From Actinomycetota bacterium (GTDB lineage: Bacteria; Actinomycetota; Rubrobacteria; Rubrobacterales; Rubrobacteraceae), in assembly GCA_902810695.1 (NCBI GenBank), contig CADDYV010000019.1:1-56122 (forward strand): DNA of 56,122 nucleotides, in the 5' to 3' direction. Below the pieces are notes generated by a model. That model worked only from the letters and a program-made list of their open reading frames with translations. It made no database searches and had not been told where the DNA came from. Of this stretch, positions 8,061 to 56,120 are shown piece by piece. The position numbers and the translations under genes were made by a program. Position 1 is the stretch's first letter. Every line of letters begins with the position of its first letter.

Positions 8061-9521
8061 TTAGGCCGGAGCCGCGCTGCTCCTTGCGCCCGGCTTTATG
8101 TTCTGGTTGAGACGGAACATGTTCGTGGGATCATACCTGTCCTTCAGGGCGACGAGCTTCCGGTACTTCTCCGGCTCGTAGGCCGTGCGTACGCGCTCCT
8201 CGCCTTCATCTCCGATGAAGTTGAGGTAGGTGCGCTCGCTCGTCCACGGCTGCATCGCCTCCGTCAGCCCTTTCGCCCATCTTATGTGCCTCTCGGGGTC
8301 CATCATGGGGTCGGCCCACATCGATATCGCGTGGAAGTTGAAGACCGCCTCGCGCAGTCCGAGCGGCGTCGCTTCGTCCGCCACCCGCCTTATTGCCCCT
8401 CCCATCGGGAGCAGAAGCACGCTCGTCAGGGGCGAGGTAACCTTCATCGCGTGCTCCACGAAGACGTCTATCGCCTCGTCGGGAAGCTCGTCGAGGAATC
8501 CGGCCTTCCAGTAGTTCTGCATGCCGGAGGGGTTGCCGGCGTCTATCATGCTCTGCAGCGCGGTGTAGGGTATCGGCTGAACCATGTCCAGCGCCGGAGG
8601 CAGGGATTCTTTGAGAGGCTGAATCGCCTTCTCTCCCTCCTCGATGGGCCCCGCGTAGCTGACCACGACGGCGAGAACCTGGGTTCCCTGCACGGGGTCG
8701 GGCACGAACGGCTCGGGGGGAGCGGTGACGAAGGCGCAGCCGCCGCCGAGTTCGTCGGGAGCAGTTTCTATGAAGTCGCGGTAGAAGCGGATAACGTCGC
8801 GTGCCTGCTCAGCAGGGTACATGAGCATGCCGCCGAGTATGATCGGGCCTACAGGATGCAGCCTGTACTCGAAGGAGGTAACGATCCCGAAGTTGCCTCC
8901 GCCGCCTTTGAGACCCCAGAAGAGGTCCTCGTTCTCCTCTTCACTCGCCCTCACGAAACGCCCGTCGGCGGTAACCACATCCGCCGAGAGGAGGTTGTCC
9001 ACGGCGAAGCCCAGCTTGCGCTCCAGCCAACCCGAGCCGCCGCCCAGGGTGAGACCGGCGATCCCCGTGTTGGAGACGCGCCCGCCGGTAACGGCGAGCC
9101 CGAACATCTGCGTCTCGCGGTCGAGCTCGCCCTGGAGGAGCCCGGCCTGGGCGCGGACGGTGCGGGCTTCGGGATCAACCCACACGCCCTTCATCGGGAA
9201 GAGGTCAATGACGATGCCACCGTCCACCACCGCGTAGCCCGGGACCGAGTGACCGCCCCCGCGCACCGCAACGTTCATATCGTTCTCGCGCGCGAAAGTC
9301 ACCGCGGCAACAACGTCGGCTACGCCGGAGCAGCGGGCGATCAGGGCCGGGCGGCGGTCGATCATGGCGTTGAAGACGGCGCGGGCCGCATCATAGCCAT
9401 CGTCGCGGGAGCGTATCAGCTCGCCGCGGAAATTCGTCCTGAGCTTCTGGAAAATAGCTTCATCGAGACCATCTCCTGAAGATGCGCCGATGGGGCCCCG
9501 CGGGTCCGCAGTGTCCATCAT
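8061..9521 (-). CDS. FAD-dependent BBE-type oxidoreductase
   Basis: A 486-residue VAO/PCMH-fold flavoprotein of the berberine-bridge-enzyme group. FAD-binding features are AVRGGGHSVPGY (the His usually bonded to the flavin 8-alpha position), TGGRVSNTGIAGLTLGGGSGW, and GLKGGGGNFGIVTSFEYRLHPV. The C-terminal BBE motif is YDPTNMFRLNQNI. In bicovalent members a Cys occurs in the segment read here as GGRVSNTG; its absence predicts single covalent attachment. Substrates of such enzymes are usually sugars or secondary metabolites, and none can be chosen here. The ATG at 9521 has an upstream GAGGAGA. A longer reading to 9614 would lack family similarity. Confidence 0.88.
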   Translation of the reverse strand: MMDTADPRGPIGASSGDGLDEAIFQKLRTNFRGELIRSRDDGYDAARAVFNAMIDRRPALIARCSGVADVVAAVTFARENDMNVAVRGGGHSVPGYAVVDGGIVIDLFPMKGVWVDPEARTVRAQAGLLQGELDRETQMFGLAVTGGRVSNTGIAGLTLGGGSGWLERKLGFAVDNLLSADVVTADGRFVRASEEENEDLFWGLKGGGGNFGIVTSFEYRLHPVGPIILGGMLMYPAEQARDVIRFYRDFIETAPDELGGGCAFVTAPPEPFVPDPVQGTQVLAVVVSYAGPIEEGEKAIQPLKESLPPALDMVQPIPYTALQSMIDAGNPSGMQNYWKAGFLDELPDEAIDVFVEHAMKVTSPLTSVLLLPMGGAIRRVADEATPLGLREAVFNFHAISMWADPMMDPERHIRWAKGLTEAMQPWTSERTYLNFIGDEGEERVRTAYEPEKYRKLVALKDRYDPTNMFRLNQNIKPGARSSAAPA

Positions 9522-9659
9522 ATTTTCTCCTCTACCAGAGATTTTTTGTATGCATCCCAAACGATAGTAGACCCACCCAACCCGCACATCCCCCAAACGT
9601 ACCATTTTCGGCAAATCGGATAGCTGGTTCTTCGGAATCTACGGGATCGAAAGTTGCCC

Positions 9660-9688
9660 TTGCTGTATGGGTTAGCGGGTAGTACACT
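9660..9688 (+). promoter_or_regulatory. predicted sigma-70-type promoter
   Basis: TTGCTG (9660-9665) and TACACT (9683-9688) are separated by 17 bp, predicting a start near 9695. It would drive the short transcript that ends at the terminator near 9913; both neighbouring genes are on the other strand. Confidence 0.45.
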
Positions 9689-9694
9689 TCCCCT

Positions 9695-9913
9695 CAGTTG
9701 ACGGCACGGAAAGGAGGTGATCCAGATAGACGCATCGAGTAGTAGTCGCGGGTATCTTCTGGGAGAGGTGGCACTGATCTAGCTCCCCGAAACCCCGCGG
9801 GTTCTGGGTCACACCGCCTCTTCGGTAGTTGCAGGCGGCGTGCTGACAACAGGATACCTGCGATGACTCAAAGGGTACGGCCCCCGGAACCTCGCTTTCG
9901 GGGGTTGTTTTTT
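9695..9913 (+). ncRNA. candidate small RNA or peptide mRNA with a perfect 16S rRNA 3'-end complement
   Basis: About 215 nt bounded by a promoter and an intrinsic terminator. Near its 5' end is AAAGGAGGTGATCCAG (9710-9725), a 16-nt perfect reverse complement of the conserved bacterial 16S 3' tail, far longer than an ordinary Shine-Dalgarno sequence. A frame opening inside it (GTG 9717) runs 21 codons to TAG at 9780-9782 and would continue another 27 codons to TGA at 9864. No ATG is in place, so translation is doubtful. Stem-loops are visible at ACCCCGCGGGT (about 9792-9802) and CCGCC/GGCGG (about 9814-9840). It is not a tRNA, tmRNA, SRP RNA or RNase P RNA that I recognise. Whether it is regulatory RNA or coding is open. 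Confidence 0.4.
9881..9913 (+). terminator. intrinsic terminator of the small transcript
   Basis: CCCCCG (9881-9886) pairs with CGGGGG (9899-9904) and is followed by TTGTTTTTT (9905-9913). The run of U is on the plus strand, so it serves the plus-strand transcript; it lies just beyond the stop of the minus-strand citrate synthase gene. Confidence 0.75.
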
Positions 9914-36472: not shown

Positions 36473-36522
36473 TGCACGCCCTCCATCCTTCTCTCTGGGG
36501 ACGCGCGAGACTTTTTCTCTTA

Positions 36523-36616
36523 CTCTCCCTGCGCCGGTATTACCCGGATCAGGTTCTGCGGGTCGGTGCTTAGAGCTATGAGCCTCGCACCCTCTCAGCC
36601 TCGCGGCTCCCCGGTC
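36523..36616 (-). promoter_or_regulatory. TPP (THI-box) riboswitch
   Basis: Read on the minus strand, the conserved CTGAGAGGGTGC segment lies at 36597-36586 and ACCTGATCCGGGTAATACCG at about 36555-36535, with the closing GCAGGGAGAG at the 3' end pairing towards the 5' side to form P1. This is the canonical thiamin pyrophosphate aptamer. No intrinsic terminator is seen in the roughly 50 nt before the thiT start, so TPP probably blocks translation initiation. It controls thiT-thiD-thiM. Confidence 0.96.
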
Positions 36617-36631
36617 GCTTATATCTTTGTA

Positions 36632-56046: not shown

Positions 56047-56120
<74 letters not shown>

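Follow-up and report, generated by a model that had tools for sequence, protein, structure and literature searches.

The window analysed here is a 56,122-nucleotide stretch of DNA from a member of the Rubrobacteraceae (contig CADDYV010000019.1 of assembly GCA_902810695.1). It contains a structured RNA gene of about 217 nt on the forward strand. The promoter of this gene consists of a -35 hexamer TTGCTG (9660-9665, +) and a -10 hexamer TACACT (9683-9688, +), and the transcript is predicted to start at about 9695-9697. In all 27 relatives with enough upstream sequence, TTGNNN lies exactly 17 nt from TANANT while the spacer between them is variable. The -10 hexamer of the relatives reads TAAAAT, TAGAAT or TAAACT, and their promoter lies 18-22 nt ahead of a 17-nt block that is described below. 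A generic consensus promoter scan misses this conserved TTGNNN-17-TANANT arrangement. The gene ends in a confirmed intrinsic terminator with a 13-pair stem and a T run (9877-9913, +). The next gene downstream encodes citrate synthase and is convergent, as it is in 13 loci including that of the window. The next downstream ORF of the relatives lies mostly on the opposite strand, and cinA is found upstream, about 240 nt away, in 19 of them. In the window, a FAD-binding oxidase of the berberine-bridge type (8061-9614, -) is located between cinA and the RNA, whereas cinA adjoins the RNA in these 19 relatives. A leader for citrate synthase was considered and rejected because that gene is on the opposite strand. 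A co-directional gene directly downstream, as expected for a cis-acting leader, is absent in the window and mostly absent in the relatives, and the RNA is not a leader since the downstream gene is usually convergent. The conserved promoter, the terminator and the convergent next gene together make this a stand-alone RNA gene. The preliminary description of this DNA had proposed such a unit, and comparison with relatives now supports it through the promoter (27/27), the terminator at 9877-9913 and the conserved structure. The only Rfam matches in the window are a TPP riboswitch (36510-36623, -) and a tRNA (56047-56120, +).

A DNA search gave strong matches to the element in nearly all genomes of the same family. 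A covariance model built for it, R1, detects the element in 37 of 39 Rubrobacteraceae genomes, including that of the window, with E values from 1e-58 to 1e-40. Of the two genomes missed, one (G014) gives DNA-search matches at the ends of two contigs, and the completeness of the other (G017) is 60%. The RNA is thus conserved in the relatives of its host. No convincing match was obtained with R1 in the phylum outside this family (about 357 genomes searched), where the best hit scored 22 bits, and a phylum-wide family was therefore rejected. The RNA gene is mostly single-copy per genome. Genome G034 carries two full-length copies with equal scores (contigs C334 and C584), which may reflect a duplication or a mixed assembly.

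The RNA folds into a conserved structure. It comprises seven helices with 42 pairs, which are 97.9% paired across a model-fitted alignment of 38 copies. Nine pairs show changes on both sides, and 29 such cells are found against 9.1 in shuffles, with none of 500 shuffles reaching 29; these counts are biased towards the structure, whose nested part guided the fitting of the alignment. The pseudoknot was left out of the model, yet it contains three pairs with double changes. Its strand a, CGGCACG (9702-9708, +), pairs with strand a', CGTGCTG (9839-9845, +), and three of the seven pairs are changed on both sides, as in the exchange of GGCACG:CGTGCC for TAGCACG:CGTGCTG and GGCACA:TGTGCC. Covariation across homologues is thus supported, that of the pseudoknot included. 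The terminal helix joins ATC and GAGT (9734-9740, +) to ACTC...GGGT (9866-9876, +), and its last pair exchanges between U-A, C-G and U-G. Helix e is formed by CGCGGGTATC (9747-9756, +) and GATACCTGCG (9853-9862, +); all of its cells are paired (100%) and three of its pairs carry double changes. Helix f, with two double-change pairs, is formed by GGAGAGGTGG (9762-9771, +) and CCGCCTCTTC (9814-9823, +). Its 3' strand resembles the anti-Shine-Dalgarno sequence of 16S rRNA, and it is this anti-SD-like CCGCCTC that pairs with GGAGAGGTGG. Helix g pairs TGATCTAG (9775-9782, +), which includes a stop codon, with CTGGGTCA (9804-9811, +); 99% of its cells are paired and its changes are on single sides only. 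The CCGCCT of the 9814-9823 strand could instead pair with AGGCGG at 9833-9838; this possible switch shows no double change and is therefore raised as a possibility only. Because the pseudoknot ties the 5' end of the RNA to its interior, the 17-nt block sits between the pseudoknot and the terminal helix.

The preliminary description reported a 16-nt perfect complement of the 16S rRNA 3' end in this element. The complement is indeed there, and it is one base longer. The block GAAAGGAGGTGATCCAG (9709-9725, +) complements the free 3' tail of 16S rRNA over 17 nt. The antisense strand of the host's 16S gene (L002, on contig C26 of the genome) reads CTAGAAAGGAGGTGATCCAGCCGC, so all 17 nt pair with the host's own tail, a point that had been left to be checked. 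The match to the host 16S gene stops on both sides of the 17 nt. A 13-mer core of the block occurs four times in the 3.59 Mb genome, namely in the element, in the 16S gene and in two coding-like places, and by our own arithmetic a genome of this size would contain any one 16-mer about 0.002 times by chance. Within the window, the block has one exact match and one match with two mismatches. The identity to the host's own 16S gene and the scarcity of the core in the genome show that the match is real, exact for this host and beyond chance. The block is kept in 38 of 38 family copies except for A-to-G changes, which retain wobble pairing, and one GGGGG. Within the group the 16S tail does not vary, which leaves no natural compensatory change between the tail and the block to look for. 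The computed energy of the duplex between block and tail is -32 kcal/mol. The mean cost of opening the block is 4.3 kcal/mol, below that of about 90% of other 17-nt windows, in a calculation that leaves the pseudoknot out, and the GGAGG bases are predicted to be unpaired at a mean of only 44%. By these predictions the block appears fairly accessible.

Since an exposed segment matches the whole free 16S tail, the RNA probably binds or senses ribosomes. The reading that we lean towards, by a modest degree, is that this stand-alone structured RNA captures the 30S subunit through the block, and that its effect is the capture itself, the sensing or buffering of free 30S subunits, perhaps with initiation on a mini-ORF whose peptide is probably not the product. 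In such a mechanism, the pseudoknot between the 5' end and the interior would hold a 17-nt segment complementary to the complete single-stranded 16S 3' tail. Pairing of the block with the tail would capture a 30S subunit, and the capture would read or buffer the supply of free 30S. Brief initiation on a mini-ORF of 18-19 codons, from an AUA or AUC start, would open helices. The preliminary description had offered binding or titration of 30S subunits and an extreme initiation site as two readings, and these are not mutually exclusive. In support of 30S capture, the 17-nt block recurs independently in small RNAs of Alphaproteobacteria. Against it, the block may be conserved for the sake of a different partner.

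The candidate mini-ORF runs from ATA to TAG over 18 codons (9726-9782, +), and its ATA lies 8 nt after GGAGG. From ATA 9726 the frame is open in each of the 38 copies and meets its stop at codon 19 or codon 20. The start codon is ATA in 34 copies and ATC in four. IF3 discriminates against near-cognate starts, which include ATA and ATC, and because of this discrimination an AUA or AUC start would suit a sensor of initiation. Translation of the mini-ORF in this family is possible. It may even be that the RNA is a true gene of very small size, a mini-mRNA equipped with a maximal ribosome-binding site, in which the peptide of 18-19 residues made from the AUA/AUC start is what matters. The stop at an equivalent codon in every copy, once as TAA in place of TAG, fits such a gene. 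So does the pattern of length changes, in which the ORF strand of a junction loop gains 3 nt only (seven copies, apparently three lineages), whereas the opposite strand of the same loop varies by single nucleotides, and the sole 1-nt insertion in the stretch (L034) lies just ahead of the start. The alphaproteobacterial analogues, with GTG 7 nt after GGAGG, point the same way. However, none of the 38 family copies has a suitably spaced ATG, GTG or TTG, and ATA and ATC are poor starts. Codon positions carry no coding signature: entropy is spread over all of them, replacement changes are common, and the residues of the mini-ORF follow the RNA helices. We therefore regard a gene that exists for its peptide as unlikely. 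The preliminary description had also noted a frame from GTG 9717, which exists, and had raised recoding of its TAG, which is the one at 9780-9782. The stop is conserved at this place, reading TAG in 37 of 38 copies and TAA in one, and length changes downstream of it are not multiples of three. Recoding is rejected because the TAG is conserved and is once replaced by TAA, and because the frame beyond it is not conserved.

The extent of the block allows a different action on the ribosome. The match covers the free 16S tail, which we take to start at the base of helix 45, up to approximately the mature 3' end and then stops, and it exceeds what initiation needs. The RNA might therefore act on 16S rRNA itself, as an aid or a checkpoint during maturation of the 3' end or during quality control, and not in initiation. 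However, there is no complementarity to the precursor past the mature end and no rRNA-processing gene among the neighbours, which makes this role quite unlikely. An ordinary trans-acting small RNA that targets mRNAs, with a block that is Shine-Dalgarno-like for other reasons such as the binding of CU-rich mRNA segments, would agree with a stand-alone intergenic gene that has a terminator, and G-rich seeds are used by other small RNAs. Targeting of mRNAs, however, does not need identity to the full 17-nt 16S complement, an identity that recurs in unrelated RNAs, and we consider this explanation improbable. A chance match, or a piece of 16S that entered the locus, has nothing in its favour beyond the match itself and has practically no probability left, since only 17 nt match, the flanks of the block are without 16S similarity and the element is conserved over its whole length, with covariation, in 37 of 39 family genomes.

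The recurrence of the block, which favours 30S capture, was traced by scanning species genomes for copies of the block whose next base is not C, a condition that removes most 16S genes. At least 119 stretches were found. Among the matches listed, most are small RNAs of Alphaproteobacteria, some are 16S genes with a variant neighbour, and a few come from Phycisphaerales, Nitrosomonadales and one deltaproteobacterium. At least 101 matches have GTG after the block, and nearly all of these have a frame of 11-33 codons; an exception (L121) looks like an ordinary 57-codon gene. Within lineages, among the matches listed, the position of the stop is kept and TAG, TGA and TAA interchange, while the peptide is not kept. 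The exact 19-mer is found in 13 of 289 sampled Alphaproteobacteria genomes, which means that within the class the exact block is frequent in certain orders but not universal. In the class of Phycisphaerales it is found in 3 of 120 genomes. The differing tail of Gammaproteobacteria allowed natural covariation to be looked for: 5 of 274 genomes gave a match, all in the CAG form and none in the CAA form, close to the approximately three expected by chance. The planctomycete occurrences, from Phycisphaerales or their class, are L104, L165, L240 and L241; L104 has a 12-codon and L165 an 11-codon frame, each followed by a terminator-like hairpin. The Bradyrhizobium form (L122, L131, L136, L137, L149, L159 and L160) has a frame of 14 codons, MSxxKRCHLAGIAR, and codons within that frame (GUCACCUCG) are predicted to form pairs with the Shine-Dalgarno block. 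A viral contig, IMGVR_UViG_3300012943_000018 (L067, region 2700), contains the block and then, almost at once, a strong terminator, so a very short transcript that ends just past the 16S complement is possible there.

Among the matches listed, 36 of 36 Rhodobacterales elements lie just 3' of a yhhQ-like gene for a queuosine precursor transporter, and 30 of the 36 have arfB downstream and co-directional, mostly 176-316 nt past the block (yhhQ and arfB were identified with NCBIfam and Pfam). In these loci (L096, L097, L099, L101, L103 and 31 others) the RNA is co-directional with yhhQ and arfB. The Rhodobacterales frame has 18 codons and, in 34 distinct sequences among the matches listed, ends in TAG (18), TGA (8) or TAA (8). 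TGG is never found at the stop position, against about four expected by our own arithmetic if the two positions were independent and relatedness is ignored. Analysis by codon position gave no coding signature for this frame. Folding predictions pair the Shine-Dalgarno block of this form with an internal CACCUCC. It is an attractive idea that the Rhodobacterales RNA is a candidate arfB leader, one that would report the state of ribosomes to a ribosome-rescue gene.

A broader proposal may be made tentatively, and we hold it to be possible but doubtful. It is that these RNAs form a recurrent class of ribosome-sensing mini-mRNAs, which would expose a complete complement of the 16S tail and carry a frame of 11-33 codons that is read for the sake of reading and not for its peptide. 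Such an RNA would govern arfB in Rhodobacterales, and with its obligate AUA/AUC start the Rubrobacteraceae RNA would gauge the fidelity of initiation. Should pairing of the block with 30S subunits take place in the cell, bacteria would devote RNA genes to reading or buffering the pool of free small subunits. For the open question of how spare translation capacity is sensed, a single-copy RNA that has a 17-nt handle on the 16S tail offers a testable case. Such pairing would also provide a candidate function for the Rfam family CC2171 (RF01867) and would suggest a regulator for arfB in Rhodobacterales.

CC2171, a Caulobacter small RNA, is the close analogue of the element among known families. 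In Rfam 15 scans with gathering thresholds and E values, covering all families including 6S and raiA, the element reached no threshold, and membership in a known RNA family was rejected. The CC2171 model scores 12.6 bits in the window, no more than 19.4 bits in relatives and 18.4 in the alignment. With the alignment at 18.4 bits against a threshold of 75, the element is not a CC2171 member. At threshold, this model finds no match in the element's own genome and detects the Caulobacter control; it detects 8 of 18 alphaproteobacterial and other loci scanned. Among the loci scanned, the Rhodobacterales and Bradyrhizobium forms lie outside Rfam, and the one Bradyrhizobium locus run against the CC2171 model gave no match. 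Searches of the literature on CC2171, anti-anti-SD small RNAs, the block sequence and the arfB leader returned nothing relevant, and no function for CC2171 was found in the literature searched. Two of the ncRNAs that Landt et al. predicted in Caulobacter are reported in PMC4117421 to be translated.

The Rhodobacterales RNAs share with the element the block, a short 18-codon frame, AAGGG ahead of the terminator and a G-rich segment opposite the anti-SD-like CACCUCC. They differ from it in their GTG start, in a Shine-Dalgarno sequence that is predicted to be paired with this CACCUCC, and in having co-directional arfB next. R1 scores them at no more than about 17 bits, against about 13 for RNAs that share only the block, and common descent with the alphaproteobacterial RNAs is unsupported because this is so little above the block-only score. 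The infC gene of E. coli, which encodes IF3, starts at AUU, a codon other than AUG, GUG or UUG, behind a strong Shine-Dalgarno sequence. The likeness lies in an AU-N start after a strong Shine-Dalgarno sequence; infC, however, codes for a protein, whereas the Rubrobacteraceae RNA is without a following protein gene and its translation is putative. The weak recurrent match to CC2171 is explained by the identical 17-nt block, the closing helix and the terminator of that RNA. In both, the GAAAGGAGGUGAUCCAG block lies near the 5' end, a helix closes the body after the block, a terminator follows and the gene is present as a single copy. The order of parts is equal and the sequence is different, with no similarity beyond block and terminator, and a counterpart of the pseudoknot is not established in CC2171. 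CC2171-type RNAs have GTG 7 nt after GGAGG, whereas the Rubrobacteraceae RNA has ATA or ATC; likewise, the alphaproteobacterial RNAs read CAGTG where all 38 family copies read CAGAT or CAGTAT. A GTG directly after the CA of the block is not a stated Rfam criterion for CC2171. Judged by its sequence and fold, the element is built like CC2171 but is not a member of it, and it lies outside every Rfam family.
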